Assembly: GCA_020249775.1 (NCBI GenBank)
Contig: JADCFA010000036.1
Location: 1 to 59,291 of the forward strand
Source: Roseomonas sp.
GTDB taxonomy: Bacteria; Pseudomonadota; Alphaproteobacteria; Acetobacterales; Acetobacteraceae
DNA length: 59,291 nucleotides
Direction of reading: 5' to 3'
The notes beneath the pieces are model-generated. The model saw nothing but the letters and a program-made list of their open reading frames with translations, had not been told where the DNA came from and searched no databases. A program made the translations under genes and the position numbers. This document shows positions 11,957 to 58,859 of the stretch, in pieces (the stretch's first letter is position 1; the number at the start of each line of letters is the position of its first letter).

Positions 11957-12871
11957 ATGTCGGCCAAACAACGCCTCACACCCCATCTTGCGCGCCTGGA
12001 ATCGGAAGCCATCGGCATTTTGCGCGAAGGGGCTTGCGCCTTCCGCCGCCCGGTGCTGCTCTATTCCATCGGCAAGGATAGCAGCGTGTTGCTGCATTTG
12101 GCACTGAAGGCCTTCTATCCGGGCACGCCACCCTTCCCGCTGCTGCATATTGATACCACCTGGAAGTTCCGGGAAATGATCAGCTTTCGTGATGCCACCG
12201 CGAAGCGTCATGGGTTGGAATTGCTGGTGCATACCAATCAGGAGGGCCTGTCGCGCGGCATCAACCCCATTACCTCAGGCTCCGGGCTGCATACTCAGGT
12301 GATGAAGACCGAAGCGCTGCGCCAGGCCCTGGATCAATACGGCTTTGATGCCGCTTTCGGTGGCGCGCGGCGTGATGAGGAAAAATCACGCGCCAAGGAG
12401 CGCGTCTTTTCCTTCCGGGGCCCTGGCCATGTTTGGGAGCCACGGCTGCAGCGGCCGGAATTATGGTCCCTGTTCAACACGCGCATTCATCCGGGGGAGA
12501 GCATGCGGATTTTCCCGCTTTCCAACTGGACCGAATATGATGTGTGGGATTACATCGCGGCAGAAAACATCCCCGTGGTCCCGCTATATTTTGCAGCGCC
12601 ACGCCCCGTGGTCCGAAGGTCTGGCGGTTGGATCATGGTGGATGATGAACGCCTGCCGCTTGAGGCTGGCGAAACACCGGAAACCAGAATGGTGCGCTTT
12701 CGCACCCTTGGCTGCTACCCGCTTTCCGGCGCCATCGAAAGCATGGCCGCAACCCTGCCTGATATCATCACGGAAATGCGCGCCGCGCGCCGAAGTGAAC
12801 GCGAGGGCCGGCTGATTGATCACGATGGTGAAGCCTCCATGGAACGCAAAAAGCGTGAAGGCTATTTCTGA
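11957..12871 (+). CDS. cysD: Sulfate adenylyltransferase subunit 2 (CysD)
   Basis: 304 residues, normal CysD length. The PP-loop [17 protein letters not shown] near residue 37 binds [36 protein letters not shown] and the C-terminal [20 protein letters not shown] are CysD hallmarks. With CysN it makes adenylyl sulfate (APS) from ATP and sulfate in the cytoplasm, the first step of assimilatory sulfate activation. Its TGA shares a base with the next ATG (TGATG), coupling it to cysNC. No cysH, cysI or sulfate transporter lies in the window. Confidence 0.96.
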
Positions 12872-35816: not shown

Positions 35817-35873
35817 CACTAAAAACCTTAGTGCGTGTCCGGTGAACGCATGTGAACCGACCCCGCACTAAGG
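35817..35873 (-). terminator. Terminator-like hairpin after the TRAP genes
   Basis: On the minus strand CCTTAGTGCG (35873-35864) can pair with CGCACTAAGG (35835-35826), followed by TTTTTAG; this is a Rho-independent layout ending the dctQM transcript and includes the dctM stop codon. The loop is 28 bases. A CACTAA at 35817-35822 can pair with part of the same stem, offering an alternative hairpin. Confidence 0.55.
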
Positions 35874-37175
35874 CCCGAAGCTGATCCGGGGTAGCCACAG
35901 CGCCATTTCCGGAAAGGCAATCAGCAGCGCGGTCATCACCACCATGGCGATAAAGAAAGGCACGGTGCCCTGGAATACCTCGGCAATCGTGCCTTCGCGC
36001 CTGACCGCCTGAATGACGCAAAGCGTCATGCCAACAGGCGGCGAAATGAGTGAGATTTCGCACATCAGCACAATGAAAACGCCGAACCAGACCGGGTCAA
36101 TGCCAGCCGCGACAATCACCGGAAAGACCACCGGCACGGTGCCCACCAGCATGGGCAGGGTTTCGAAGAAAATGCCGAGCAGCAAATAGAATATGGTAAG
36201 CGCGATAATCAGCTCCAGCGGGCTTGCGCCAATGCTCGTCGCAAAAGCGCCAAGCGCCGGCGTGACCCCGAGCAATCCCATGACGAAATTCAGGTAGAAG
36301 GCAACGGCCAGGATCAGCAGGCTCATCGCCGTCAGATTGGCGGTCGCAATGAAGCATTCATGCAGCATGCGAATGGAAAGCCGCCCATACAGCGCGGCAA
36401 TCGGCAGCGCCACCACTACGGCAAGTGCGGCGCTTTCCGTCACGGTCGCCCAGCCCGTGTAGATGGAGCCCATGATGATGCCAAAAATCACCAAGGGCGG
36501 CATCAAATCCACCAGCCGCTTCAGCCTTTCGCGCAGGGGATCGGCCACTTCCTTCTGCCGCACCAGATCGGGCTTCACCAGCGCGATCAGGATGATGGTG
36601 CCCATGAACAGCACCGTCATCACAATCCCAGGAATAACAGCGGCGGCGTAAAGCTGCCCGACCGAGGTATTGGTCATGGCGCCATAGACAATCAGGGCAA
36701 TGCCAGGTGGGATCAGATTGCCAAGCGAAGCGCCCGCCGCAATGGACCCCAATACCAGGCGCGTATCATAACGCCGCTTGCGGAAGGAAGGCAGCGCCAC
36801 CGTTGAAATCGTTGCAGCTGTGGCAACGGAAGAACCGGATACGGCGGAAAATACGGCGGATGCGCCGATATTGGTGTGCAGCAAGCCGCCGGGCAGAATA
36901 TTCAACCAATCCGCCAGTGAGCGATAGAGCCGATCCGTCGAACCTGAGCGCACCAGAATCTCGCCGAGCAGAATGTAAAGCGGGATGGAGAGCAGCACAT
37001 AATCTTCCATCGCCCCCCAAAGCTGCGTGCCAAAGGCAGCGACCAAGGGCGGGCCGAGATAAAGCGCCGCCCCCAGCAGAGCGATCAGAAACATCGCCAC
37101 CGCCACATGCAGACCCAAAAACAGAAAGGCGATCAGCAGCAGAAAGCCAATGCTAGCTTCGGTAACGCCGATCAT
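35868..37175 (-). CDS. dctM: TRAP transporter large permease (DctM)
   Basis: 435 residues, about 12 membrane helices. DctM hallmarks: the N-terminal VAVAMFLIALLGAALYLGPP, the Gly/Ser-rich NIGASAVFSAVSGSSVATAA, LGNLIPPGIALIVYGAMTN, and late FVIL...SLISPPVGMTLCVIQAV. It is the ion-coupled transporter subunit (Na+ symport in studied members). It overlaps dctQ by four bases and is transcribed away from the dctP gene. Stop codon sits in a hairpin. Confidence 0.93.
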   Translation of the reverse strand: MIGVTEASIGFLLLIAFLFLGLHVAVAMFLIALLGAALYLGPPLVAAFGTQLWGAMEDYVLLSIPLYILLGEILVRSGSTDRLYRSLADWLNILPGGLLHTNIGASAVFSAVSGSSVATAATISTVALPSFRKRRYDTRLVLGSIAAGASLGNLIPPGIALIVYGAMTNTSVGQLYAAAVIPGIVMTVLFMGTIILIALVKPDLVRQKEVADPLRERLKRLVDLMPPLVIFGIIMGSIYTGWATVTESAALAVVVALPIAALYGRLSIRMLHECFIATANLTAMSLLILAVAFYLNFVMGLLGVTPALGAFATSIGASPLELIIALTIFYLLLGIFFETLPMLVGTVPVVFPVIVAAGIDPVWFGVFIVLMCEISLISPPVGMTLCVIQAVRREGTIAEVFQGTVPFFIAMVVMTALLIAFPEMALWLPRISFGP

Positions 37176-37774
37176 GGCTGTTTGCCTTCGCGTTCAAGGA
37201 TGGTGCCCATTTCGGCCTCGATCTCCTCATCGAGCGTCAGCGGGCCGTAGAACAGATTGAGCTTCCGGCGATCTGACAGCAGCAACCAGAAGGCATGCGC
37301 AGCCATGGCGCCGGCTGAAAGCGCAAACAGCAAAAGCCCGATAAACCAGGCGCCCTGCGGCAACCAAAGCGGCGTTTGCAGCGGCGAATTGGCATGCGCC
37401 TGGAATTCGATGCTCTCTTCCAAAACAGACCAACCACGCCAGGCGCCATAAATCGCCATGGCCGCGAGCAAGCCGTAAGCGAGCGTATTCAACACCGCGC
37501 GCAGCAAGGCCGGCATGCGCCCCAGCAGAAAATCCACGCGCGTATGCGCCTTCACCGTTAGCGCACAGGCAAAGCCGAAAGCCGAGACAATGGCGGTGGT
37601 ATAGCCGCCGATTTCGTCCACCCCTTGCAGGGATACGGAAAAGAATTTGCGCAGCAGGATTTCCGCCACCGTCAGGAAGGACAGCGCAAGCAGCCACCAG
37701 CCGGACAGAATGGCGAGAAATCGGGCAGGTGGCGCGAAAAAGCGGCTGACCGGGTTGGGATCTTTCGGGGTCAT
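37172..37774 (-). CDS. dctQ: TRAP transporter small permease (DctQ)
   Basis: 200 residues from the ATG at 37774 (MTPKDPNPVSRFF); the longer frame to 37882 adds a polar leader. Four membrane helices: WLLALSFLTVAEILLRK, the TTAIVSAFGFACALTVKAHT stretch with HTRVDFLL, LAYGLLAAMAIYGAWRGW, and the last at LFALSAGAMAAHAFWLL. The KAHTRVDFL motif is typical. It stabilises and assists the DctM subunit, with the solute-binding protein encoded divergently 160 bases away. Confidence 0.88.
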   Translation of the reverse strand: MTPKDPNPVSRFFAPPARFLAILSGWWLLALSFLTVAEILLRKFFSVSLQGVDEIGGYTTAIVSAFGFACALTVKAHTRVDFLLGRMPALLRAVLNTLAYGLLAAMAIYGAWRGWSVLEESIEFQAHANSPLQTPLWLPQGAWFIGLLLFALSAGAMAAHAFWLLLSDRRKLNLFYGPLTLDEEIEAEMGTILEREGKQP

Positions 37775-37934
37775 GGGCGGCGGGGCCTTGTTCAAAACGC
37801 TACGGCCCGCCTTGGCGCGCCGGTTGCTTGGCAAATCGGACGCCGTGTTGCACAGAGACCGCAGACTGGCAAAACTCGTCACTCATGGCGGCAGGGTTCG
37901 CAAAATCCATGCCGCCCTTTCGGGAGAAGAATTG

Positions 37935-38984
37935 ATGCGCACCCCCCTTTCCCTGCTCGGCGCGGCCTTTGGCGCCTTGCTCGCCGCTACCCCGGCCCTG
38001 GCGCAAAGCCCCATTCAGCTTCGCGTGGCGGGCCATTTCACCTCCAACTCCCGCCATACGGAAGGCATTGAACGGCCTTTCTTCACCGGATTGGGGCAGG
38101 CCACGGGCATCAACCTTGCCATTACCTTCAACCCAATGGACCAGGTGGGTGCCGCTGCGCCTGATGCGCTGCGGCATCTCCGCAATGGCACCTTTGATGT
38201 CATGAGCGTGCTGATCGGCCAGACCGCGCGCGATGAGCCCTTTATCGATTCGCTTGATCTGATGGGGGTTTCGACCACGCTCGAAGAAACGCAGCAGGCC
38301 ATTGCCGGCGGGCGCGAGGCGCTCGATCGGCGCTTGCAGGAACGCTTCAATGCCAAGGTCATGACGCTCTGGCCCTTCGGTGCGCAGATGTTCTTCTGCA
38401 ATCGCCCCGTCGCTTCCATGGGCGATCTGCGTGGCTTGAAGGTGCGGTCCTATACGCCGACCATGTCGGCGCTGCTGCAATCCTTGGGCGCCACTCCCGT
38501 GACCTTGCAGCTTTCTGAGACCTATCAGGCTTTGCAGCGCGGCACGGTGGAATGCGGCATCACCTCGGCCACATCGGCCTATACCGCGAATTGGGGCGAG
38601 GTTATCCGCACCATCCTGCCGGTATCGCTTGCATCAGGCGTGCAGGGGCATTTCATGTCGCTGGCGGCGTGGCGCCGTTTCAACCCGGAACAGCAAGCGG
38701 CACTCACGCGCGCCTTTGCTGATTTGGAAAAGCAAATGTGGGATCTGGCACGCACCGCCAGCAATGAGGCCTTTGCCTGCTTCCAGGGCCAGGATGCCTG
38801 CACCACGCGCAAATTCAATGTGCAGGTGGTGACGCCGCCGGCGGAAGATGAACGCCGCGTGCGTGAAGCCGTGACGGCGGTGGTGCTGCCAAGCTTCCGC
38901 GATAGCTGCAACCGCGTCTGGGCGGATTGCGCGCGGGTTTGGAATGACAGCGTCGGCAAGGCGCGCGGCTATACCATTCCCTGA
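37935..38984 (+). CDS. dctP: TRAP transporter substrate-binding protein (DctP)
   Basis: 349 residues from the ATG at 37935 with a GGGAGAAG ribosome site and a signal peptide MRTPLSLLGAAFGALLAATP ending ALA-QS. DctP fold: LRVAGHFTSNSRHTEG, LRNGTFDVMSVLIGQTARDE, NRPVASMGDLRGLKVRSYTP (with the conserved substrate-carboxylate Arg) and ETYQALQRGTVECGITSATS. Two Cys pairs in the C-terminus (CFQGQDAC and CNRVWADC) may form disulfides, unusual for DctP. It binds an organic acid in the periplasm; ligand unknown. Confidence 0.9.
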   Translation: MRTPLSLLGAAFGALLAATPALAQSPIQLRVAGHFTSNSRHTEGIERPFFTGLGQATGINLAITFNPMDQVGAAAPDALRHLRNGTFDVMSVLIGQTARDEPFIDSLDLMGVSTTLEETQQAIAGGREALDRRLQERFNAKVMTLWPFGAQMFFCNRPVASMGDLRGLKVRSYTPTMSALLQSLGATPVTLQLSETYQALQRGTVECGITSATSAYTANWGEVIRTILPVSLASGVQGHFMSLAAWRRFNPEQQAALTRAFADLEKQMWDLARTASNEAFACFQGQDACTTRKFNVQVVTPPAEDERRVREAVTAVVLPSFRDSCNRVWADCARVWNDSVGKARGYTIP

Positions 38985-39879: not shown

Positions 39880-41901
39880 GTGCTGATCGCCCTCGCCCTC
39901 ATCTTGGTGGTGCTGGCGATGCTTTCGTTGGCGGCGCCCTTGCTGGCGCGGGCGGCGCTTGGCGTCAGGGCGCTTTATGTGGGCGCAGCCTTGGCTTCTT
40001 TGGTGTTCGCGCTTGGTGGAATAGTCGGGCTCATGGCCACGCCCAGTGCGCTCGCTTTACCCTTCGGCCCACCTTGGGGGGCGATGCGACTCGCGCTTGA
40101 TCCGCTTTCCGCCTGGTTCCTGCTCATCCTCGGGCTTTGCGGCCTGGCCGCTTCCGCCTTCGCCTTCGGCCATGTGAAGGGGCCAGAGGCGCCGCGCCGC
40201 CTAGTGCCCTATCCGCTGTTTCTCGCCGGCATGGCGCTGAGCTTGCTCGCCGCCGATGGCTTTACCCTGGTGTTTGGGTTTGAACTCATGTCCTTCGCGT
40301 CCTGGGTGCTGGTGGCACATGACCATGAAGATGCGGAAAATCGCCGCGCCGCGCGGTTGTATCTAGGCTTTGCGGCTTTGGGTGGGGCGGCGCTGATCCT
40401 GTGCTTTGGCCTGCTGGCTGCCGGCGCTTCGGCGGGGGCGGGTTTCGCCGCGCTGCGCGCGGCGCCGCCGGATGGGTGGCGCGCGCTTGCGATCTTGCTG
40501 CTGGTGGTGGTGGGGGCCGGGTCCAAGGCCGGGCTGGTGCCTTTGCATGTCTGGCTGCCCTTGGCGCATCCCGCCGCGCCGAGCCATGTGAGTGCGCTGA
40601 TGTCAGCCGCCATGACCAAGGTGGCGCTTTATGTGCTGGCGCGCGTGGTGTTTGATCTGGCTGGCCCGGCGCAGCCGCTATTTTGGGGCGCGGTGCTGAT
40701 GGCGCTTGGCATCGCCTCCGCCATCATGGGCGCTTTGCGCGCCGCCTTGGAGGAAGACACCAAAACGCTTCTCGCCTGTTCCACCATTGAGAATATCGGG
40801 CTGATCACTTTGGGGCTTGGCTTGGCGCTGGCGTTTCGCGCGGCGGATTTGGGCGCGCTGGCTGCGGTTGCGGCGGGGGCTGCGCTACTGCATGCGCTGA
40901 ACCACGCCATGTTCAAGACCCTGCTGTTTTTGGGCGCCGGTGAGGTGCTTTACGGCGCGGCATCGCGGCGCATGGATCGGCTGGGCGGCTTGATCCATGC
41001 CATGCCTTGGACGGCCGGCTTGGTATTGCTGGGCGCTGCCGCTGCTGCGGCACTGCCGCCACTGTCGGGCTTTGCCTCCGAATGGTTGCTGTTGCAGGCG
41101 CTGATTGCCGCTTGGCGCGTCGGCGATCTGGCCTTTCAGATTGGCGCGGCAGCAGCCACGGCCTTGGCGGCTTTGGCGGTCGCGCTCGCCGCTGCGGCGA
41201 TGCTGCGGTTTTACGGCATGGTGTTTCTGGGTCGCCCCCGCAGCCCACGCGCCGCAGGTGCTACTGAGCTTTCTGGCATGGCGCGTGCCGCATTGATCCT
41301 GCCTGCCGCGCTGACAGTGATCTTTGGCCTGATGCCCGGGCATTTGCTGGAACTCGCCGCGCCGGCGCTGCGGCTGCTGACCGGTGCTGGCGCGGGACTA
41401 TCTGCGCTTGGTGGCGTCACGGTGACGGTTTCCGAAGGCGGCGCGGGTTATGCACCGCTGATCGTTTTTGTGTTGTTCTTGCTACTTGGCGGCGGCGTTG
41501 TGTGGTTCGCGCGGCGACAAGCGCCAGGCATTACGCGCGGCCCCGCCTGGGATTGCGGCTTCATCGCACCGCCGCATCACCTGCCCTTTGGTGATCCCGC
41601 AACGCAAGTCTCGGCTGCCGGCATGGCGCAGCCGCTACGCCGCATGCTGGGCAAGACATTACTGGCGGCGCGAGAGCGCGTGGAAATGCCGCCCCCAGGC
41701 AACACCGCGCCCGCGCGTTTGCAGGCAGGGTTTCATGATCCCGTGCTGGCGCTGATCACCGGACCCCTGCCCCGCGCGCGTGACAGGTTGGCGGCGCTCG
41801 CGGAACGTTTGCGGGATTTCTCGCTCCGGCAATGTCTCGGGCTTGGCTTTGCGGTGCTGCTGGCGCTGATGGCGCTGCTGTTATGGCTGGAACGGGCATG
41901 A
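39880..41901 (+). CDS. hyfB: Hydrogenase-4 component B-like ion-translocating membrane subunit
   Basis: 673 residues starting at a GTG, 15 or more membrane helices. It belongs to the NuoL/M/N-Mrp antiporter family: the channel core GAGSKAGLVPLHVWLPLAHP followed by SALMSAAMTKVALYVLARVV, and an earlier ELMSFASWVLVAHDHEDAEN. The HAMF...ALLHALNHAMFKTLLFLGAG helix carries the usual His/Lys. The C-terminal 130 residues carry the extra HyfB-type module ending in a single hydrophobic helix. In the family the half-channels move H+ or Na+ coupled to electron transfer. It opens the hyf-like operon; the next gene overlaps its stop (ATGA). Confidence 0.9.
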   Translation: MLIALALILVVLAMLSLAAPLLARAALGVRALYVGAALASLVFALGGIVGLMATPSALALPFGPPWGAMRLALDPLSAWFLLILGLCGLAASAFAFGHVKGPEAPRRLVPYPLFLAGMALSLLAADGFTLVFGFELMSFASWVLVAHDHEDAENRRAARLYLGFAALGGAALILCFGLLAAGASAGAGFAALRAAPPDGWRALAILLLVVVGAGSKAGLVPLHVWLPLAHPAAPSHVSALMSAAMTKVALYVLARVVFDLAGPAQPLFWGAVLMALGIASAIMGALRAALEEDTKTLLACSTIENIGLITLGLGLALAFRAADLGALAAVAAGAALLHALNHAMFKTLLFLGAGEVLYGAASRRMDRLGGLIHAMPWTAGLVLLGAAAAAALPPLSGFASEWLLLQALIAAWRVGDLAFQIGAAAATALAALAVALAAAAMLRFYGMVFLGRPRSPRAAGATELSGMARAALILPAALTVIFGLMPGHLLELAAPALRLLTGAGAGLSALGGVTVTVSEGGAGYAPLIVFVLFLLLGGGVVWFARRQAPGITRGPAWDCGFIAPPHHLPFGDPATQVSAAGMAQPLRRMLGKTLLAARERVEMPPPGNTAPARLQAGFHDPVLALITGPLPRARDRLAALAERLRDFSLRQCLGLGFAVLLALMALLLWLERA

Positions 41902-42857
41902 GTATCCTCACCAGCCTTGTCACGCAGCTTCTGCATCTGGCGCTGATGCTGGCGCTGGCGCCGGTGCTGACGGGGTGTGTGCGCTGGCTGAAGGCGCGGC
42001 TGATGGGCAGGCGCGGGCCGCATCCCTTGCAGCCTTGGCGTGACTTGCTGAAGCTATTGAAAAAGCGCCCGGTGCTGGCGGAAAACGCCTCCGTCATTTC
42101 GCGCGCCGCACCTTATGTGGCGGTCGCTTCGGCCCTGCTGGCGACGGCGCTGGTGCCGAGTTTTGCGCGCGGTATGGTCTTCGCCCCCTTTGCGGATTTG
42201 CTGCTGATTGCTGGGCTTTTGGCGCTGGGGCGCTTTGCCATGGCGCTGGCGGGGATGGATGTCGGCACCGCCTTTGGCGGTATTGGCGCGACGCGCGAAA
42301 TGGCCTTCGCCGCGCTTGCGGAACCTGCCTTGGTTTTGGCGGCGCTGATCTTCGCCATCCTGGCCGGTACGACGAATCTGGATGTGATTATCGGCATTTT
42401 TCAGGAGGGCTCACTTGGGCTTCGTGTATCGCTTGGCTTCGCCGCGGTGGCGCTGCTGGCGGTGGCGTTGGCAGAGAATGCGCGCATCCCGGTGGATAAT
42501 CCCGCCACGCATCTGGAACTGACCATGGTGCATGAGGCAATGATCCTGGAAGCATCCGGTCGGCATTTGGCGCTATGGGATTTTCAGGCATCCTTGCGCC
42601 TCACGCTTTGGTTGGCGCTGCTGGCGGCGGTGTTTTTGCCCTTCGGGATGGCGCCGCCGGCCGCGGGACCGATCGCTTGGGTGATGGGGCTTGTGGTGTT
42701 TATCGCGAAAATGGCAGCGCTCGGCTTGGCGCTCGCGGTATTTGAATCCGCCATTGCCAAGATGCGCGTCTTTCGCGTGCCGGAGTTTCTGGGCGCGGCG
42801 CTGCTGCTTGGATTGTTGGGTGCCGTGTTCCTGTTTGTCTCAACGGGGCTGTCATGA
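41898..42857 (+). CDS. hyfC: Hydrogenase-4/FHL membrane subunit (HyfC/HycD, NuoH-like)
   Basis: 319 residues from the ATG overlapping the hyfB stop. About eight helices in the NuoH/HycD pattern: RWLKARLMGRRGPHPLQPWR near the N-terminus with DLLKLLKKRPV, then IGATREMAFAALAEPALVLA and the quinone/coupling loop NARIPVDNPATHLELTMVHE (conserved Glu and Asp-Asn-Pro), then MILEASGRHLALWDF. This subunit anchors the hydrophilic arm to the membrane arm and passes the conformational signal. Its stop overlaps hyfE by four bases. Confidence 0.93.
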   Translation: MSILTSLVTQLLHLALMLALAPVLTGCVRWLKARLMGRRGPHPLQPWRDLLKLLKKRPVLAENASVISRAAPYVAVASALLATALVPSFARGMVFAPFADLLLIAGLLALGRFAMALAGMDVGTAFGGIGATREMAFAALAEPALVLAALIFAILAGTTNLDVIIGIFQEGSLGLRVSLGFAAVALLAVALAENARIPVDNPATHLELTMVHEAMILEASGRHLALWDFQASLRLTLWLALLAAVFLPFGMAPPAAGPIAWVMGLVVFIAKMAALGLALAVFESAIAKMRVFRVPEFLGAALLLGLLGAVFLFVSTGLS

Positions 42858-43522
42858 GTTTCGGGCAGCTTCCCTATGATCTGGCGCATCTTTTGGGAGG
42901 GGCAGTGCTGCTGCTGTCCTTTGTGCTGCTCTATCAGCGGCGCATTGCCGCCGTGATCAATGCCTTCGCTACACAAGGCGCGCTATTGGCTCTCGCGGCT
43001 GCTTGGCAGGGCTATGTCCAGGGCGCCGCCGGGCTTTACGTAACGGCGGCGATTGCCTTCGGCGCCAAGGCTGTTCTGATTCCCCTAGCGCTGCATCGGC
43101 TGGTGCGGCGCTTCAATTTGCAGCGCGGCGTTGATCCTGCGCTTGGCATTGGCGTTTCGCTGGTTGCCGGCGTCGCTTTGGCGGGCTTCGCCATGCTGGT
43201 GGTGCTGCCGGCCACCGCCGGGCAGCGCGCCTTGGCGCGAGAAGATTTGGCGCTGGCACTTTCCGTTGTGCTGCTGGGCGGCTTGATGATGATCACGCGG
43301 CGCAATCTGATTAGTCAGGTGATCGGGTTGCTCAGCCTGGAAAACGGGCTGATCCTGGCGGCCGTGGGTGTCGCCGGCATGCCGCTGGTGGTGGAACTTT
43401 CCACCGCCGCTTTGGTACTGATGCTGGCGGTGATCGCCGGCGTTTTTGCGCTGCAAATGGGCGAGAGCTTCCAAAGCCTCGATACTGAAAGCCTTGAATC
43501 GCACCGGGGGGAAGGCGAATGA
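42854..43522 (+). CDS. hyfE: Hydrogenase-4 membrane component E-like
   Basis: 222 residues, about six or seven helices, resembling HyfE (NuoK-like plus extra helices): LLYQRRIAAVINAFATQGAL, AIAFGAKAVLIPLALHRLVR, NLISQVIGLLSLENGLILAA (the NuoK-like Glu in LLSLENG) and the final LMLAVIAGVFALQMGE. Overlaps both neighbours by four bases (ATGA). The subunit belongs to the proton-pathway part of the membrane arm; no active-site role. Confidence 0.88.
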   Translation: MSFGQLPYDLAHLLGGAVLLLSFVLLYQRRIAAVINAFATQGALLALAAAWQGYVQGAAGLYVTAAIAFGAKAVLIPLALHRLVRRFNLQRGVDPALGIGVSLVAGVALAGFAMLVVLPATAGQRALAREDLALALSVVLLGGLMMITRRNLISQVIGLLSLENGLILAAVGVAGMPLVVELSTAALVLMLAVIAGVFALQMGESFQSLDTESLESHRGEGE

Positions 43523-44949
43523 TGCCGCTACCCTGGATGATGGTTTTTTTTCCCTGGGTGGGCGCATTGATCTTGCTTGCCTTGCCAAGGCTCCGCATCG
43601 CGGCGGCGGTGAATATCGGCTGTGCGGGCATTTCCTTTCTGCTGGCGCTCGCACTATTCACTCTGCCGCATGGCGAACAAGGTTGGACGCGCATTGATGC
43701 GCTGAACCTGCCCTTTGTGCTGCTGGCTTCCTTTGTGGCTTTGACCACCGCTATTTTTTCGGCTGCGATGCTTGCGGCGGAGGGTTTTGATCACTGGCGC
43801 ATCCGTGCCTATCACGGTGCCTTTCAGGTGTTTCTCGGCGCGCAATACCTCGCGTTGCTATCTGATAATCTCGGCGTATTGTGGGTCGCGATTGAAATCG
43901 CCACCCTCGCCAGCGTGCTGATGGTGGCGGTGCATCGCACGCCGGCAGCGATGGAAGCAGCGTGGAAATTCTTCATGCTGTGCGGCTTTGGCATCGCGCT
44001 GGCACTATTTGGCACCATCCTGCTTTATTCCGCTGCGCAAGCCTTGCTGGATGCTGAAAGCGGCCTTTCCTGGGCAGCGCTGCGGCGTGTGGCCGCGCGC
44101 TGTGATGCGGATACGCTGAACCTGGCGTTCGTTTTTCTCTTGGTAGGCTATGGCACCAAGGCTGGCTTGGTACCGCTGCATTCCTGGCTGCCCGACGCGC
44201 ATGCGGAAGGCCCGATTGCGATATCCGCCGTGCTATCGGGGCTTTTGCTGAATGCTGCCATGCTCGCGGTGCTGCGCGCAAAAGCCATTGTCGGCGCGCA
44301 TCCCGGTACCATTGCAGTCGGGCCTTTGCTGATGGCGCTGGGGCTTGCTTCCGTGCTGCTGGCATCGCTGGCGCTTTGGCGGCGACGTGACGGGCGGCGC
44401 TTTTTCGGCTGGAGCTCCATCGAACATATGGGCATTGCCGCTTTTGCCTTTGGTGTTGGTGGCCCGGCGGCGACTCTCGCGGGCTTGCTGCATATGATCG
44501 GCCACTCATTGGTGAAAAGCGCGATCTTCTTTGGCATTGGCCGTGCGGCGCAGCAGAAGGGCAGCCAGAAGCTCGCGGATATTTCAGGGCTGGTGACGAG
44601 TGATCCGTGGCTTGGTTGGGGACTTGCCTTGGCAGTTGGCGCCATTGCCGGGCTGCCGCCCTTTCTGCTGTTTGCATCCGAATATGCCGTGCTGACTGCC
44701 GCCATGGCGGCGCAGCCTTGGCTTACTGCCGCATTCGCGCTTGGTCTGGTGCTGGCGATGACGGCGCTGATCCATACGCTGCAAGCGCTTTGTTTTGGGA
44801 CGGCAACACCTGATATGGCGGTTGCTGGGCATGGGCTTGCGGTGCTGGTGCCGCTTTGGCTGCATCTGGCGGTGGCGCTTCTGCTGGGGCTTGCGATGCC
44901 ATCCGTATTCAGCAGTTTCCTCAAGGCCGCAGCGGGGATGATCGGATGA
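43519..44949 (+). CDS. hyfF: Hydrogenase-4 component F-like ion-translocating subunit
   Basis: 476 residues, about 14 helices, a second antiporter-type subunit. VGYGTKAGLVPLHSWLPDAH (Lys and His of the channel) and AEGPIAISAVLSGLLLNAAM are typical of HyfF; WVAIEIATLASVLMVAVHR carries the TM5-like Glu; FFGWSSIEHMGIAAFAFGVG and HMIGHSLVKSAIFFGIGRAA hold the later Lys/His. A run of eight T near the start (about 43541) encodes MVFFP in frame. With HyfB it gives the complex two ion channels. Its stop overlaps hyfG (ATGA). Confidence 0.9.
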   Translation: MMPLPWMMVFFPWVGALILLALPRLRIAAAVNIGCAGISFLLALALFTLPHGEQGWTRIDALNLPFVLLASFVALTTAIFSAAMLAAEGFDHWRIRAYHGAFQVFLGAQYLALLSDNLGVLWVAIEIATLASVLMVAVHRTPAAMEAAWKFFMLCGFGIALALFGTILLYSAAQALLDAESGLSWAALRRVAARCDADTLNLAFVFLLVGYGTKAGLVPLHSWLPDAHAEGPIAISAVLSGLLLNAAMLAVLRAKAIVGAHPGTIAVGPLLMALGLASVLLASLALWRRRDGRRFFGWSSIEHMGIAAFAFGVGGPAATLAGLLHMIGHSLVKSAIFFGIGRAAQQKGSQKLADISGLVTSDPWLGWGLALAVGAIAGLPPFLLFASEYAVLTAAMAAQPWLTAAFALGLVLAMTALIHTLQALCFGTATPDMAVAGHGLAVLVPLWLHLAVALLLGLAMPSVFSSFLKAAAGMIG

Positions 44950-46460
44950 TGGGGCCGGCTTCCAGCCTGATCCGCAGCGGCAATCCGCAAGGTGCCAAGC
45001 CCTATGAGCGGTTTTTGCTCTCGCCCACCGCTTGGGGGCAATTGCCGGCGGCCTTGCGGCAGGAAGCAGACTTGGCGCTGCTTGGGCTTTGGGCCGATGC
45101 AACGCAGGTGCATGCCTGCTTCCTGCATGAACCAAGCAACGAAGCCGCGTTGGCTTCAACCCCGGCGGCAGGCTGGAACTACGCGGCGCTTTCCCCCGCG
45201 CGCCCCGGCGCGGTGCGGTTTGAACGCATGATCCTGGAATTGTGGGGCCATCACGCTGAAGGTGCGGTGGATTTGCGCCCTTGGCTCGATCACGGCCGCT
45301 GGCCCTTGCGCCACCCGCTCGCCGCCAAGACCATCCCCTTTGCAGGAGAAGCGCCGCAGATAGAATTCCTGCCCACCGAAGGTGAGGGCATTCACCAAAT
45401 CCCGGTCGGCCCGATCCATGCCGGCGTGATTGAACCAGGGCATTTCCGCTTTTCCGTGCAGGGGGAATCCGTGGTGCGGCTGGAACAGCGGCTTGGCTAT
45501 AAGCATAAGGGCACGCTTTCGCTGATGCTTGGCACATCACCGCGCACGGCGGTGCGTTATGCTGCGCGGCTTTCGGGCGATACCACGGTTGCGCATTCCT
45601 GGGCATTTTCCGCAGCGGCGGAAGCGGCACTTGGCGTGACACCGCCGCCACGCGCGCTGCATTTGCGCGCATTGATGCTGGAACTGGAACGCATCCATAA
45701 TCATCTGAATGATTGGGGCTTTGTCTGCAATGACGCAGCCTTTGCCTTCCCCCATGCACGCTGCGGCTTTCTGCGCGAAGGTGTGCTGCGCGCCATAGCC
45801 GCCGCCTTTGGGCATAGGTTGATGATGGACCGCGTTTTGCCCGGCGGTGTTGCACCCGATATCGCGCCGCGCGGGGCGGAGGCGATTCTGGCCGCGCTGG
45901 ACGCAGTGGAAGCGGAAATCCCCGCGCTGATGCAGATTTATGAGGCCCATGCCAGCTTGCAGGATCGCGTGGTGACCACGGGATATTTGCGCCCCGATTT
46001 GGCGCGCGCCTTCGCCGCCGGCGGACATGTGGGCCGCGCTTCTGGTCGCGGTTTTGATGCGCGCCGCCTGCCGCAAAACCTGCCTTATTCAACGCTTGCT
46101 TTCGATGTAGCGGTGCTGGAGGCGGGTGATGTGGATGCGCGGGTGCGGATCCGTGTGACCGAACTCGGCCAATCCATCGCGCTTGTGCGGCAAATCCTGG
46201 CCAGCCTTCCAACCGGTGAGCTGATGGCGCCATTGCCCGTGCGGGCAGGCGAAGGGATAGCGATGATTGAAGGCTTTCGCGGTGAATGCCTGCATTGGAT
46301 TGCCCTTGATGATGGCGGGCTGATCCGCGCGCTTTTCCCGCGCGATCCTTCCTGGCTGCAATGGCCACTTCTGGAAGCAGCGGTCGAAGACAACATCGTC
46401 GCCGATTTCCCGCTCTGCAATAAATCCTTCAATTGTTCCTATAGCGGGGTGGATTTGTGA
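44946..46460 (+). CDS. hyfG: Hydrogenase large-subunit homologue lacking the NiFe ligands (Ehr type)
   Basis: 504 residues: a NuoC-like N-terminal region (about 1-145) fused to a 49-kDa/NuoD-like domain, as in HyfG/HycE. IPVGPIHAGVIEPGHFRFSV, GYKHKG, LELERIHNHLNDWGF and GRASGRGFDARRLPQNLPYS are conserved. The N-terminal Ni-binding RxCGxC of HycE appears here as ARLSGDTTVAHS (Ser210 and Thr213 in the Cys positions). The C-terminal DPCxxC is replaced by PLCNKSFNCSYSGVDL (Cys491, Cys497, six residues apart). It therefore cannot hold a normal NiFe centre. It fits the energy-converting hydrogenase-related (Ehr) group, whose reaction is not established. No maturation genes or C-terminal processing tail are present. 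Confidence 0.88.
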   Translation: MMGPASSLIRSGNPQGAKPYERFLLSPTAWGQLPAALRQEADLALLGLWADATQVHACFLHEPSNEAALASTPAAGWNYAALSPARPGAVRFERMILELWGHHAEGAVDLRPWLDHGRWPLRHPLAAKTIPFAGEAPQIEFLPTEGEGIHQIPVGPIHAGVIEPGHFRFSVQGESVVRLEQRLGYKHKGTLSLMLGTSPRTAVRYAARLSGDTTVAHSWAFSAAAEAALGVTPPPRALHLRALMLELERIHNHLNDWGFVCNDAAFAFPHARCGFLREGVLRAIAAAFGHRLMMDRVLPGGVAPDIAPRGAEAILAALDAVEAEIPALMQIYEAHASLQDRVVTTGYLRPDLARAFAAGGHVGRASGRGFDARRLPQNLPYSTLAFDVAVLEAGDVDARVRIRVTELGQSIALVRQILASLPTGELMAPLPVRAGEGIAMIEGFRGECLHWIALDDGGLIRALFPRDPSWLQWPLLEAAVEDNIVADFPLCNKSFNCSYSGVDL

Positions 46461-46987
46461 TGCTGTGGCCGAAGCTCGCCCGTGCGCTATTCGCGAAACC
46501 CCTCACGGATAATGCGCCGCTGGTGCCGCGTGAGACCATTCAGGCGCTCGGCGAAAGGCTGGCCGCCAGCAGCCGCGCGCGTTTGGGGCGTAGCCTTGCG
46601 ATCAGGGAGGTGGATAGCGGTTCCTGCAATGGCTGTGAGCTGGAAGTGAATGCGCTGCAGAATGTCGCCTATGATCTGGAACGCTTCGGGCTGCGCTTTG
46701 TCGCCTCACCCAAACATGCCGATGTATTGTTGGTGACAGGTCCCGCCTGCCTCAATATCCGTGAAGCCCTGGAACGCGCGCTGGCCAGCACGCCAGAACC
46801 GCGCTGGGTGGTGGCGGTTGGCGATTGCGCCGTGGATGGCGGCGTCTTCAAGGGTTCCTATGCGGTGGAAAACGGCATCGCTTCCGTACTACCGGTAGAT
46901 TTGCTGATCCCCGGCTGCCCGCCTTCGCCCGCGCAATTACTTGAAGGGCTGCTTGCCCTGCTGGAAGCAGAGTCTGCAAAAAAATAG
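46460..46987 (+). CDS. hyfI: Hydrogenase small-subunit/NuoB-like Fe-S protein
   Basis: 175 residues from the ATG at 46460; a GTG at 46457 overlapping the hyfG stop is an alternative. NuoB/HycG-like: VDSGSCNGCELEVNALQN (Cys56, Cys59), VTGPACLNI (extra Cys97), AVGDCAVDGGVFKGSY (Cys123) and IPGCPPSPAQL (Cys153). Four of these match the ligands of the proximal [4Fe-4S] (N2-like) cluster, so the electron-transfer side of the complex is intact while the partner's NiFe site is lost. Last gene of the operon; its stop lies in the T-run of a minus-strand terminator. Confidence 0.92.
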   Translation: MLWPKLARALFAKPLTDNAPLVPRETIQALGERLAASSRARLGRSLAIREVDSGSCNGCELEVNALQNVAYDLERFGLRFVASPKHADVLLVTGPACLNIREALERALASTPEPRWVVAVGDCAVDGGVFKGSYAVENGIASVLPVDLLIPGCPPSPAQLLEGLLALLEAESAKK

Positions 46988-55272: not shown

Positions 55273-56973
55273 ATGCCCGCTTCCCGTCCCACGCTCAGTG
55301 GCCCGCGCCATGCGATTTCAGCGGGGCATTATCTGGCGGCTTCCGCCGGCTACGCGGTGCTGGAAGCCGGCGGCAATGCGGTGGATGCGGGGTGCGCCGC
55401 AGGGATTGCGCTTGGTGTGCTGCTGCCGGATTTGGTGAATGTGGCGGGTGTGGCACCCATCATGATCCGGCTGGCCAATGGCCAGGTGGAAACCATCGCG
55501 GGGCTTGGCCATTGGCCGGCGTCTCTGCCGGCTGATATTTTCATGCGTGAACATGGCGGGAAGATTCCGCAAGGCGTGCGCCGCACCGTAGTACCGGCCG
55601 CGCCGGATGCCTGGATCACGGCATTGGAGCGCCATGGCACCATGGGCTTCGGCGATGTGGCGCAATATGCCATTCGCTACGCAGCGGAAGGCTTCGCGGT
55701 TTATCCGCTACTGGCGGAAAGCGTTTCCGCGCATGTGGCGGAATATGCGCGCTGGCCATCCAATGCGGCGATTTTCCTGCCAGGCGGCGCGCCGCCCAAA
55801 ATTGGCGAACGCTTCTTCCAAAGAGATCTGGCGCGCAGCCTCAGCTATATGGTGGATGAGGAAAAGCGCGCAGCGGGTAAAGGCAGGCTTGCGGGGCTTG
55901 CCGCCGCGCATGCGGCCTTTTATCGCGGCGATATCGCGCGAGAGATCGTAGCCTTTCAGCAGCGCGAAGGCGGCTTCCTGACCATGGCGGACATGGCGGG
56001 TTTCCATTCTCGGCTGGAACCCGCCATCACGCGCCGCTGGCGTGGGCATGAGGTGATTACCTGCGGCCCTTGGTGCCAAGGCCCGGCGCTTTTGGAAGCG
56101 CTGCTGCTGTTGGAACGCGCCGGTCTGGATGGGCTGGAACATAATTCGCCTGAATATCTGCACCTTTTTACCGAATGTGTGAAAGCGGCCATGGCGGATC
56201 GCGAGTATCATTTTGGTGATCCCGCCTTCATTGATGTGCCGCTAGATCAGCTGTTGTCGGATGCGCATTTGGCGGCACGCGTGGCGGAAATGGACCCGGT
56301 GCGGGCGCATCCTGCCATGTATCCGCCCTTGCTCGGCGCGGGGCGCGCAGCGGATGGGCCGGTGCGGCGCGATCTGCCGACGATTGAAGCCGATACATCC
56401 TATGTCGCGGTGGTGGATCGTTGGGGCAATGCCTTCAGCGCCACACCTTCCGATGGGTCCTGGAATTCGCCCGTGGTGCCGGGGCTTGGTCTGATCCCTT
56501 CCAATCGTGGCAGTCAGAGCCGACCGGATCCTTCGCACCCGGCCGGCGTGGCCCCAGGCAAGCGCCCGCGGCTGACACCCAACCCCGCCATGGTGGTGAC
56601 GCGTGGCGGTGGTGTGATGCCTTTCGGCACACCGGGCGGTGATGTACAAATCCAGGCCATGTTACAGGTGATATTGAACGTCTTGCATTTTGGGATGGAA
56701 TTACAGGAAGCGATCGAAGCGCCGCGCGTTTCATCCTATGCCTTCCCATCATCCTTCGCGCCGTTTGATTATTTCCCGCGCCGGCTTGCCGTGGAAACAC
56801 GCATTCCGGAGGAAACGCGCAATGCGCTTGCCGGACGCGGGCATGACATCAAGGAATGGCCGGATATGACTTGGCTTGCGGGCAGTGTTGAGGCGGTGAT
56901 GTCCGACCCCGCGGCAGGCCTGGTACGCGCCGGAGCCGATCCACGCCGACCCGCTTATGCGATTGCAGGATGA
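55273..56973 (+). CDS. Gamma-glutamyltranspeptidase family protein
   Basis: 566 residues from the ATG at 55273 with GGAG upstream. Ntn-hydrolase GGT family: AGHYLAASAGYAVLEAGGNA near the start, the autoprocessing nucleophile Thr in EADTSYVAVVDRWGNAFSAT (about residue 376), and the small-subunit TPNPAMVVTRGGGVMPFGTP. No signal peptide is visible, so it is probably cytoplasmic, unlike periplasmic glutathione-degrading GGTs; substrate could be a gamma-glutamyl amide or related acyl compound. Its stop overlaps the start of the TPR-glycosyltransferase (ATGA). Confidence 0.88.
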   Translation: MPASRPTLSGPRHAISAGHYLAASAGYAVLEAGGNAVDAGCAAGIALGVLLPDLVNVAGVAPIMIRLANGQVETIAGLGHWPASLPADIFMREHGGKIPQGVRRTVVPAAPDAWITALERHGTMGFGDVAQYAIRYAAEGFAVYPLLAESVSAHVAEYARWPSNAAIFLPGGAPPKIGERFFQRDLARSLSYMVDEEKRAAGKGRLAGLAAAHAAFYRGDIAREIVAFQQREGGFLTMADMAGFHSRLEPAITRRWRGHEVITCGPWCQGPALLEALLLLERAGLDGLEHNSPEYLHLFTECVKAAMADREYHFGDPAFIDVPLDQLLSDAHLAARVAEMDPVRAHPAMYPPLLGAGRAADGPVRRDLPTIEADTSYVAVVDRWGNAFSATPSDGSWNSPVVPGLGLIPSNRGSQSRPDPSHPAGVAPGKRPRLTPNPAMVVTRGGGVMPFGTPGGDVQIQAMLQVILNVLHFGMELQEAIEAPRVSSYAFPSSFAPFDYFPRRLAVETRIPEETRNALAGRGHDIKEWPDMTWLAGSVEAVMSDPAAGLVRAGADPRRPAYAIAG

Positions 56974-58859
56974 GCGCCGCTTCTGCAACGCCCGATCGCG
57001 GAACGCTGCTTGATCAGGCTATGGCGCGCCTGCAGGCGCGGGATTTTCGCGCCGCCGCCACGCTGTTCAACCGCGCCATTACTCTTGGGCGCGATGCACC
57101 AGAAATTCGCAATAATCTTGGCAATGCCTTGCGCCATGCTGGTGACAAGGCGGGGGCTGAGGCCGCGTTTCGTGAAGCGCTCAGCCAGCGCCCTGCTTAT
57201 GTGCGCGCCGTTGTCAATTTGGTGGAGATGCTGCTGCCCGCGCGCGCTGATGCCGCAGCTGAGATCATCGCCGCCGCACTTGCCGCAGGCGCGGGGGAAG
57301 CGTTGCACCGCAGCGTTGCACGGGTTTGGCGCGATGCCGGGCGGCCCGACCGCGCCATAGTCCATTTGCAGGCCCTACTTGAAACAGCGCCAGGCGATAC
57401 CTTGATGCGCAGTGAATTGGGCACAACTCTGATGGGTCTTGGGCAGCCTAGTGCGGCCATTCCGCATCTGGCGCGTGTAGCGGCTGAGATGCCGGATCGC
57501 GCCGATGCCAAGGTGAATTATGGCCTGGCCCTGCAACAATCGGGCGATATTAGCGCAGCCATGGCCGTGCAGCGCCGCGCCATTGCGCAAGACCCGCTCT
57601 GCCGCCCGGCCTGGCAGAATCTTCTGCTCGGGTTGAATTACATGCCGGGCATTACGGCAGAGGAAGTGGCGGCAGCGCATCGTGCCTATGCCGCGCGCTT
57701 TGCCCGCCCTGCCCCGGCACCCTTCGCCAATACGCCAGACACAGAAAGGCGACTACGCATCGGCATGCTGTCGGGCGATTTTCGCCAGCATCCCGTTGGG
57801 TATTTTTTGGAAGCGGCCATTGCTCAGCATCGGCGCGCAGGCTTTCATTTTACCGCCTATGACGTCGGCAAGCGCGCCGATGCCGCTACGGCCAGGCTGC
57901 GCGGCGTTTTCGATGCTTGGCGATCCGTGGGTGCGCTGGAAGATGAAGCGATTGTCGCGCAAATTCGCGCCGATGCGATTGATATTCTGGTGGATCTGAC
58001 AGGCCATACCGAAGCGAGCCGCATTGGTGTGATGGAATATCGCCCTGCACCGGTGCAGGTAAGCTGGATTGGCTATGCCAATACCAATGGTGTCGCGGCG
58101 ATGGATTGGATCATTGCCGATGATGTGGTGCTGCCAACGGAAGATGAGCCGCTCTATATCGAAAAGCCGCTTCGCCTGCCTGGCTGCTATTTGTGTTACA
58201 CCGCGCCGCGCAGGCCCGCGGCGCCAAGCCCGCCGCCCATGCTGCGCCAGGGCCATGTGACCTTTGGGTGCTTCAATAATCTCGCGAAAATCAATGACGA
58301 GGTTTTGACCGCTTGGGCTAGGATTCTGCCGCGCCTGCCTGACGCCCGGCTTTTGCTGAAGACGGCCGTGCTGGGCGAGGCCGCAACAGCGCAAAAACTT
58401 CGCGCGCGTTTTATCGCGGTTGGCGGCGATGCCGCGCGGCTTGACCTTGAAGGCCATAGCCCGCGCGCGGATTACTTCGCGCGCTACGCCACGGTGGATT
58501 TCATGCTTGACCCCTTTCCCTTCCCGGGCGGTACCACGACAGCCGAGGCAATCCTGGCCGGCGTGCCAACCCTGACGCGGTGCGGGCGCGGCGGCATGAT
58601 CAGCCGTAATGGCGAAACCCTGCTGAGCGCGGTTGGGCTGCAGGACTGGATCGCAGCGGATACGGATGCCTATATCGAAAAGGCCGTGACTTTTGCACGG
58701 GACGCCGGCGTCTTGGCGGCGCTAAGGGCGCAGCTTTCGCCTGGGCCGCTTATTGATGCTGCAACCTATGCCCGGGGCCTAGAGGCCGGCTGGCGATTTA
58801 TCTGGCGCGATTGGTGCGCACGGCAGGGGGCGATTTCACCGAAGGCGGAAAAGGTCTAG
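56970..58859 (+). CDS. TPR protein O-GlcNAc-transferase (GT41/SPINDLY-like)
   Basis: 629 residues. TPR repeats occupy about 10-220 (for example IRNNLGNALRHAGDKAGAEA and VNYGLALQQSGDISAAMAV). The catalytic part (about 265-610) keeps bacterial OGT/SPY motifs: RIGMLSGDFRQHPVGYFLEA (catalytic-site His), DILVDLTGHTEASRIGVMEY, RPAPVQVSWIGYANTNGVAA, FGCFNNLAKINDEVLTAWAR (conserved Lys), and MLDPFPFPGGTTTAEAILAG. It likely adds a sugar from UDP-GlcNAc or GDP-fucose to Ser/Thr of a protein. Coupled to the GGT-like gene; its TAG stop touches the right-hand IS end. Confidence 0.88.
   Translation: MSAASATPDRGTLLDQAMARLQARDFRAAATLFNRAITLGRDAPEIRNNLGNALRHAGDKAGAEAAFREALSQRPAYVRAVVNLVEMLLPARADAAAEIIAAALAAGAGEALHRSVARVWRDAGRPDRAIVHLQALLETAPGDTLMRSELGTTLMGLGQPSAAIPHLARVAAEMPDRADAKVNYGLALQQSGDISAAMAVQRRAIAQDPLCRPAWQNLLLGLNYMPGITAEEVAAAHRAYAARFARPAPAPFANTPDTERRLRIGMLSGDFRQHPVGYFLEAAIAQHRRAGFHFTAYDVGKRADAATARLRGVFDAWRSVGALEDEAIVAQIRADAIDILVDLTGHTEASRIGVMEYRPAPVQVSWIGYANTNGVAAMDWIIADDVVLPTEDEPLYIEKPLRLPGCYLCYTAPRRPAAPSPPPMLRQGHVTFGCFNNLAKINDEVLTAWARILPRLPDARLLLKTAVLGEAATAQKLRARFIAVGGDAARLDLEGHSPRADYFARYATVDFMLDPFPFPGGTTTAEAILAGVPTLTRCGRGGMISRNGETLLSAVGLQDWIAADTDAYIEKAVTFARDAGVLAALRAQLSPGPLIDAATYARGLEAGWRFIWRDWCARQGAISPKAEKV

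Follow-up and report, generated by a model that had tools for sequence, protein, structure and literature searches.

What does a complex laid out like a membrane-bound [NiFe] hydrogenase do when the ligands of its metal site are gone? The question is raised by a 504 amino acid protein encoded on a 59,291-nucleotide stretch of Roseomonas sp. DNA (assembly GCA_020249775.1, contig JADCFA010000036.1; the whole stretch is referred to as the window), which an original prediction, made from the sequence without database searches, had described as a hydrogenase-type large subunit with both NiFe ligand pairs lost. The protein belongs to a single + strand operon (39880-46987) of six genes, identified by homology as hyfB, hyfC, hyfE, hyfF, hyfG, and hyfI. 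We tentatively favor reading their product as a six-subunit, complex I-like, redox-driven ion pump of the energy-converting hydrogenase-related (Ehr) type, in which an N2-type cluster would be the sole redox center and would be fed by a soluble carrier. The operon and the sites that carry the argument are as follows.

39880..41901, + strand: hyfB-like antiporter-type membrane subunit, 673 amino acids (PF00361, E = 5e-42; top NCBIfam match hydrogenase 4 subunit B, below cut-off)
41898..42857, + strand: hyfC-like NuoH-type membrane anchor, ~319 amino acids from the ATG at 41898 (PF00146, E = 2e-34)
42854..43522, + strand: hyfE-like membrane subunit of the extended NuoK type, 222 amino acids (NCBIfam hydrogenase 4 membrane subunit, E = 5.7e-18, below cut-off)
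43519..44949, + strand: hyfF-like antiporter-type membrane subunit, 476 amino acids (PF00361, E = 2e-46; hydrogenase 4 subunit F, E = 5e-158, below cut-off)
44946..46460, + strand: hyfG/hycE-like large subunit (NuoC-like plus NuoD-like) without [NiFe] ligands, 504 amino acids, open reading frame (ORF) intact
45567..45584, + strand: remodelled RxCGxC, Arg208-Leu-Ser210-Gly-Asp212-Thr213, placed by alignment to HycE and homologues
46416..46457, + strand: remodelled DPCxxC region at the very C-terminus, Cys491-Asn-Lys-Ser-Phe-Asn-Cys497-Ser498-Tyr-Ser-Gly501-Val-Asp-Leu504
46457..46987, + strand: hyfI-like small subunit (NuoB type), 176 amino acids, GTG start (PF01058, E = 1e-31; top PDB match MbhJ, E = 8e-34)
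46625..46918, + strand: N2-type cluster ligands Cys57, Cys60 (CNGC), Cys124, and Cys154 of the small subunit

All five gene junctions overlap by four bases, provided that hyfC starts at 41898, where its ATG forms an ATGA overlap with the hyfB stop; the first in-frame ATG of that ORF lies at 41832. NCBIfam matches across the operon all fell below the model cut-offs, except for the general NuoB model on the small subunit.

Large subunit

The large subunit matches Escherichia coli HycE (E = 4e-45) and aligns with it without a gap across the C-terminal ligand region. HycE ligands C241, C244, C531, and C534 correspond to S210, T213, S498, and G501, respectively, and neither an RxCGxC nor a DPCxxC motif is present in the chain; both ligand pairs are thus lost, and a [NiFe] site is excluded by sequence. 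HycE residues are numbered as in PMC9474812, relative to which HycE chain 7z0s has twelve extra residues at its front. Arg-Leu-Ser-Gly-Asp-Thr indeed stands at residues 208-213 in place of RxCGxC. The DPCxxC motif is also gone, as predicted, but its replacement had been given as Leu-Cys-(6)-Cys; the actual spacing is Cys491-x5-Cys497, and the ligand columns are occupied by Ser498 and Gly501. Every one of the 92 rows with less than 65% identity stops three residues past G501, the last ligand column, and there is therefore no C-terminal maturation peptide; unlike the window protein, the genuine HyfG of Rhodovastum has a long tail after its last ligand. The predicted fold of the large subunit likewise has E. 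coli HycE as its top match (7z0s_E, TMq 0.81). Note that public records of close homologues are often named "hydrogenase expression protein HypE" or "nickel-dependent hydrogenase large subunit", names that are misleading for proteins without nickel ligands.

Conservation was assessed over 112 unique rows (120 loci minus the outgroups L084-L087, with identical rows merged), and the replacement site is kept more often than chance would give. E163, D212, H253, R364, E406, R445, N492, K493, S494, N496, Y499, G501, and D503 are invariant in all 112; S210 is kept in 111 (the exception, L126, has Cys), S498 in 109, and N252 in 108, whereas position 213 is Ser in 100 rows, Thr in six, and Ala in six. 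Several of these residues correspond to ones named for HycE in PMC9474812: the proton path E193, H284, R395, and E437 becomes E163, H253, R364, and E406, and the canopy residues R478, D529, and S283 become R445, N496, and N252.

The large subunit contains cysteines at positions 58, 261, 273, 448, 491, and 497. It had been suggested that Cys491 and Cys497 could form a new metal or redox site, an idea we reject on conservation. Cys491 aligns with an Ile of HycE and Cys497 with Pro530; they are kept in 107 and 103 of the 112 rows, respectively, with both present in 102, only Cys491 lost in one, only Cys497 lost in five, and both lost in four, so that ten rows lack one or both. Among relatives of the Allomeiothermus large subunit, Leu fills position 497 in 117/117 rows that are not gapped there, and position 491 holds Cys in 67 and Val or Ile in 50; Cys497 is present in several proteobacterial rows outside the class (L204, L209, L210, L216-L218, and L220). 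Because co-loss of the two exceeds chance (Fisher p 1e-4, uncorrected for kinship), they may pack together, yet they are dispensable. None of the other cysteines qualifies as a displaced ligand: C58 is kept in 6, C448 in 21, and C273 in 82 of 112 rows, and C261, although kept in 106, aligns with a non-ligand Cys of HycE. With no true ligand cysteine found elsewhere in the chain by alignment, the loss of the ligands stands.

Small subunit and membrane arm

The N2 quartet of the small subunit had been recognized correctly, but with residue numbers one too low (56, 59, 123, and 153). C57, C60, and C124 are kept in all 106 unique rows (L084-L087 left out) and C154 in 104 (Ala in L076, a gap in L124); Cys98 is kept in just 14. 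A Pfam scan of the window small subunit returned PF01058 only and no ferredoxin domain. In other phyla, some of the small subunits have a ferredoxin-type stretch at the N-terminus, and seven relatives of the Allomeiothermus small subunit that were scanned with Pfam gave N-terminal ferredoxin-type matches, most of them below the curated cut-off.

The conserved charged residues of the membrane arm are also retained. E135, K216, K247, K295, H338, K346, and E401 of HyfB each occur in at least 99% of 92 family rows (at least 38% identity and at least 80% coverage). HyfC has E156, E164, E215, D222, E229, E235, E240, and E305 in at least 98% of 99 rows (numbered from 41832), K72, E163, and E181 of HyfE are conserved in 105 rows, and HyfF has E126, K150, K214, H329, K333, and E388 in at least 99% of 108 rows. 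The complex had been called otherwise complete; this holds for the membrane arm (HyfB, C, E, and F), but the genes annotated in the operon do not include HyfA, HyfD, or the electron-input subunit HyfH. HycH, HycI, and FdhD are likewise not annotated in the operon or among its neighbors. HyfD, a HyfH-type iron-sulfur subunit, HycH, HycI, FdhD, and Hyp genes are all present in two genuine alphaproteobacterial Hyf loci, one of which also has HyfA; these accessory genes are not annotated in the window-type Rhizobium, Azospirillum, Variovorax, Rhodococcus, and Allomeiothermus loci, for which the plasmid gene tables are incomplete. The Variovorax locus has a 4Fe-4S protein ~3.4 kb upstream of the complex.

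Distribution and selection

The host genome (4.07 Mb in 56 contigs, 99% complete) is one of 35 from the genus, all of which contain the large subunit, in pieces in two of them. At the chosen cut-off, HyfB was found in 33 of the 35 and missed in a 78% complete assembly and in one of 670 contigs; in G019 and G006, hyfB has moved out to a different contig, yet its identity is still 94 and 91%. The ratio of nonsynonymous to synonymous substitution (dN/dS) for the six genes against three close relatives was 0.025-0.18, and 0.067-0.084 for the large subunit; HyfB of L095 and L088 was dropped as false cross-hits at 31% identity. HypD, which is required for [NiFe] cofactor assembly and was the one Hyp protein sought, was not found in 34 of the 35 genus genomes, host included, nor in 18 of 23 other genomes of the class that hold the complex.

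The closest named loci are in Roseomonas metagenome-assembled genomes and other Acetobacteraceae. In an even draw across the class, 28 of 289 genomes matched at E ≤ 1e-35; removing four outgroups leaves 24 of the window type, host included. Twenty of these have the six genes in the same order and on the same strand, two are cut by contig ends, and L079 and L080, from one genus, do not have hyfI behind hyfG. The four outgroups comprise two derived forms (L084 and L085) and two large subunits with intact ligand motifs (L086 and L087); the latter are group 4-type proteins with RVCGIC and DPCISC, adjacent ferredoxin-type ORFs, and alphaproteobacterial genomes of 1.2-1.4 Mb. Over 120 loci, blast detected HyfB in 115, HyfC in 109, HyfE in 110, HyfF in 117, HyfG in 120, and HyfI in 114, counts that include the four outgroups and many contig-cut loci and in which HyfB and HyfF can cross-hit.

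A phylum-wide draw gave matches at 1e-50 in 79 of 398 genomes; those near 1e-78 were presumed to be genuine Hyc/Hyf, and the two weakest, near 1e-51, probably represent NuoD. On plasmids, matches of at least 35% identity come from Rhizobium, Azospirillum, Burkholderia, Cupriavidus, Variovorax, Rhodococcus, and Allomeiothermus, and the same C-terminal motif occurs in large subunits named Binatia, Planctomycetes, Blastocatellia, Methanoperedens, and Anaeromyxobacter. In a 37-row tree, which was rooted arbitrarily, carries a long-branch warning, and includes no author-named Ehr sequence, a branch with 100/99 support splits seven rows of genuine Hyf, group 4, and NuoD proteins from the remaining 30; the window falls in a 13-row alphaproteobacterial clade (100/99) that also takes in the fast-evolving L084 and L085.

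Natural variants

Relatives in which the cluster, the pocket, and the pump are separated provide the main new point of this analysis. Among 120 relatives of the Allomeiothermus small subunit, all four N2 cysteines are present in 46, none in 71, and one or three in three. The Thermales-type small subunits (P0122-P0165 and L223:3960-11135, from Thermus, Meiothermus, Allomeiothermus, and kin) usually have four cysteines in an N-terminal ferredoxin-type stretch and have no Cys at the four N2 positions in 44/44 cases (with gaps at some of these positions in P0163-P0165); 27 further rows, some of them named Gaiellaceae, also lack all four. Thermales-type large subunits nevertheless have N492, K493, S494, S498, and Y499 in all 47 rows with residues there (of 50), position 496 being Asp, and their SGD[ST] stretch is shortened by one residue and contains Glu. 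In the one such operon compared, the membrane ion-path residues are kept, with HyfC E240 changed to Asp.

The opposite arrangement is found within the family of the window. In the Acetobacteraceae, matches of 1e-100 or better were counted in 71 of 120 genomes; 15 loci chosen non-randomly from the low-scoring end (L243-L257, three of them from genomes matching at 1e-110 to 1e-138), together with L084 and L085, form a derived set of 17 that was aligned by two methods. Their reading frames are open, and L257 is a derived second copy in a genome that also has a typical large subunit (G748:C1, E = 6e-243). A small subunit was detected at every locus but L257, and 15 of these 16 have the full set of four N2 cysteines, L254 having one, but Asn-Lys at 492-493, Asn496, and Tyr499 occur in 0/17, six C-termini being unaligned by the second method. 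The ion-path residues of HyfB, HyfC, and HyfF are not kept where alignable. None of the eight detectable HyfB proteins has E135, K216, K247, K346, or E401 (the alignment does not cover several of the first three), and L256 keeps H338; nine loci gave no HyfB profile match, although L084 and L085 contain ORFs that fit in size and order. These 17 loci possibly represent an uncoupled form. PMC10715153 describes deranged bc1 complexes in acetous and acidophilic taxa, and it is a guess that the derived-form genomes belong to those taxa.

The Thermales form keeps motif and pump without N2, and the derived Acetobacteraceae keep N2 without Asn-Lys and the pump residues; this pattern hints that a portion of the pocket motif is kept or lost along with the pump, whereas the cluster can go with either or be replaced. 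The hint depends on distant alignments and non-randomly chosen loci. Published Ehr descriptions yielded no recognized N2-less or pump-less form, but little was aimed at such hosts and the subscription literature lay mostly outside, and absence from print is not claimed.

Mechanism and alternatives

The earlier proposal that oxidation of a donor is coupled to ion movement had offered a quinone or a soluble carrier as possible donors. With the N2 ligands and the ion-path residues kept, coupling of electron transfer to ion movement is the most economical reading of the sequence. A soluble one-electron carrier, most likely ferredoxin, would dock on HyfI and reduce N2 directly. The electron step at the HyfI/HyfG interface would then protonate or move the former [NiFe] pocket (Ser210, Asp212, Ser/Thr213, Lys493, Asn496, Ser498, and Tyr499), acting together with the retained proton path Glu163, His253, Arg364, Glu406, and Arg445, and the change would drive H+ or Na+ movement via HyfC, HyfE, HyfF, and HyfB. 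The pocket would thus serve coupling or acceptor binding; the acceptor there would, as a guess, be a membrane quinone or another organic molecule, bound without the classical complex I headgroup ligands. In reverse, the ion gradient might be used to lower the potential of the carrier. Ferredoxin is the first candidate for direct reductant of N2, with weak, indirect support. The N-terminal ferredoxin-type stretch on some small subunits of other phyla points this way, and PF01558, a 2-oxoacid:ferredoxin oxidoreductase domain, was found in 23/23 genomes with the complex vs 16/23 without it (Fisher p 0.009), but these sets were hand-picked and unmatched for size or kinship, with one positive genome (G204) omitted. 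A quinone may be the acceptor, but Ile162 and Gly211 stand at the two headgroup positions of complex I.

A more specific version is that the former [NiFe] pocket is itself the coupling element, its motif SGD[ST]...NKSxNxSYxGxD tracking the pump and not N2, and that the window complex is a ferredoxin-driven single-cluster pump; Asn-Lys, Asn496, and Tyr499 would above all be the parts that track the pump. We consider this joint proposal unlikely as it stands, because Ser498 and Gly501 are mostly kept in the derived Acetobacteraceae, as is Asp212 in the three least derived (L254-L256), and because of an exception in Rhodococcus. There, plasmid pRZP3 (L222:6536-8734) encodes a HyfF without E126, K214, and E388 and a HyfE without equivalents of K72, E163, and E181; HyfB keeps most ion-path residues, with Asn for K247, and N2 and the pocket motif are retained despite the losses, contrary to a strict link between motif and pump.

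These survivals also weigh against the ion-pump reading in general, as do several further observations. As the Thermales form shows, such complexes can do without N2 itself. The derived membrane subunits align at 17-25% identity or not at all, and the proton-path set His253, Arg364, Glu406, and Arg445 is whole in 10/17 derived loci; given such distant alignments, the surviving residues, and this incomplete set, rapid decay in general could explain the pattern in place of a specific loss of coupling. The structure model has a confident helical core, but the predicted local distance difference test score is under 50 at residues 137-188 and 477-504, much of the pocket, and no pocket distances were therefore used. 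No donor or acceptor gene lies beside the operon, and none recurs there across the 40 and 80 loci with called neighbors. A scan for nearby ORFs with CxxCxxCxxxC, the only spacing it would detect, was positive at 12/120 loci, about four of them real-looking and two of those outgroups; its scope was the vicinity of the operon, ferredoxins elsewhere in the genome not being searched for. The fused ferredoxin-type stretch seen elsewhere is absent from the window small subunit, and PF01558 is widespread, occurring in 11/14 control genomes.

Four other explanations were weighed against the ion-pump reading. Doubtful, but with real points in its favor, is a ferredoxin (or other low-potential carrier):quinone oxidoreductase, i.e., an alternative complex I with a rebuilt polar quinone pocket. 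It would agree with the NuoD-type fold and NuoH-type anchor, and the host also has NuoD, so that quinone is presumably available. The canopy position S283 of HycE is Asn252 in the window protein, and complex I likewise has an Asn there (N185 of NDUFS2) according to PMC9474812; the same source gives canopy residue Asp529 as strictly conserved in complex I, however, and this is Asn496 in 112/112 rows. In addition, Nqo4 His38 and Tyr87, the quinone-headgroup positions of complex I, correspond to Ile162 and Gly211. The loss of these positions together with the [NiFe] ligand pairs, leaving no acceptor site identified, would suit a redox-gated ion transporter, in which nothing turns over at the old pocket and N2 senses the redox state of the carrier and gates H+/Na+ exchange via the antiporter-like subunits; the Thermales-type forms, in which the pump and most of the pocket motif persist in the absence of N2, would fit as well. 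Yet in the alphaproteobacterial set the N2 ligands (104-106/106) and the proton path (112/112) are kept, and N2 persists in derived Acetobacteraceae that lost pump residues, which suggests that electron transfer itself is under selection and makes gating an improbable account.

A formate-linked complex, with N2 fed by a formate dehydrogenase encoded in trans, has been proposed for other Ehr complexes (a formate dehydrogenase-Ehr association in PMC6349859 and Geobacter in PMC7894505), and homology to formate hydrogenlyase (FHL) is in its favor. Among the annotated window neighbors, however, there is no formate dehydrogenase or iron-sulfur partner, genes elsewhere in the genome being outside the search, and no such gene recurs beside the operon in the way that FdhD, HycH, and HycI do at genuine Hyf loci; we consider this explanation highly unlikely. 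That the operon is a decayed, non-functional hydrogenase remnant is scarcely credible. All metal ligands are gone, and the derived Acetobacteraceae have decayed further, but six intact genes with 4-base overlaps in 35/35 genus genomes, dN/dS mostly under 0.2, and a replacement motif conserved across phyla are not what a remnant would leave.

Relation to known systems

The original prediction had pointed to Ehr complexes, and in the points tested the locus fits the published Ehr description; it thus fits a known kind. Ehr features are described, and function is given as unknown or hypothetical, in PMC6349859, PMC10284858, PMC4378227, PMC7894505, PMC10432482, and PMC7304191. The shared features are a large subunit of the group 4/NuoD kind without CxxC motifs and, in one operon, a NuoB-type small subunit with NuoH-, HyfE-, and antiporter-type membrane subunits. 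The Sulfobacillus Ehr has, by the same literature, six syntenic genes near the catalytic subunit. Compared by description only, the window differs in having N2 as the sole cluster of its small subunit and in showing no formate dehydrogenase nearby. Coppi and co-workers are cited as an early source on Ehr, and Marreiros 2013 reportedly belongs to the same literature.

Mycobacterium tuberculosis Rv0082-Rv0087 is the hycDPQE locus, compared here by gene names (PMC6901956). The Rhodococcus plasmid counterpart (L222) has the same six subunit kinds, RISGDT, NKSFNLSYAGNDL, and a CNGC small subunit; in this actinobacterial arrangement, unlike in the window, the small-subunit gene comes first. Subunits B, C, E, F, G, and I are homologous to those of Hyf (hydrogenase 4) and E. 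coli FHL-1, and the HycE proton path is conserved, but the window lacks the RxCGxC/DPCxxC ligands, the maturation peptide, and adjacent HyfD, HyfH, HycH, HycI, and FdhD. With complex I (NuoB/D/H/L/M) it shares the fold and the membrane coupling elements; in contrast to complex I, there is no NuoE, F, G, or I among the operon genes, the small subunit has CNGC and not tandem Cys, and Ile162 and Gly211 stand at the quinone-headgroup positions. The separate NuoD of the host is 30% identical to the large subunit.

Neighboring genes

The operon is flanked upstream by a tripartite ATP-independent periplasmic (TRAP) transporter and an aldo/keto reductase and downstream, on the opposite strand, by DUF1489 and purD. 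The TRAP genes, at 35868-38984, are dctM and dctQ (- strand) and dctP (+ strand). DctP/Q/M adjoins the complex mainly in relatives of the window and in three other loci of the class, and was treated as a chance or local association and not as a linked partner. Neighbors were called by a codon-based method and clustered at 40 and 80 loci, with L081 and L084-L087 yielding no called genes; beyond the six operon genes, no gene family near the operon occurred in more than eight of the 80 named loci. Elsewhere, the window encodes a GTPase fused to adenosine 5'-phosphosulfate kinase (CysN/C type, 12871-14721) and two tetratricopeptide repeat proteins with glycosyltransferase family 41 matches (22780-24918 and 56970-58859).

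Significance

Ehr complexes are widespread, and published accounts give their substrate as unknown. The Roseomonas locus reduces the problem to a clean minimum, with six genes, one cluster, no detected maturation system (HypD being what was sought), and presence in every genus genome examined. The variants that separate cluster, pocket, and pump make the driver of the family testable by short comparisons, and they are relevant to the way in which complex I links electron transfer with ion movement.

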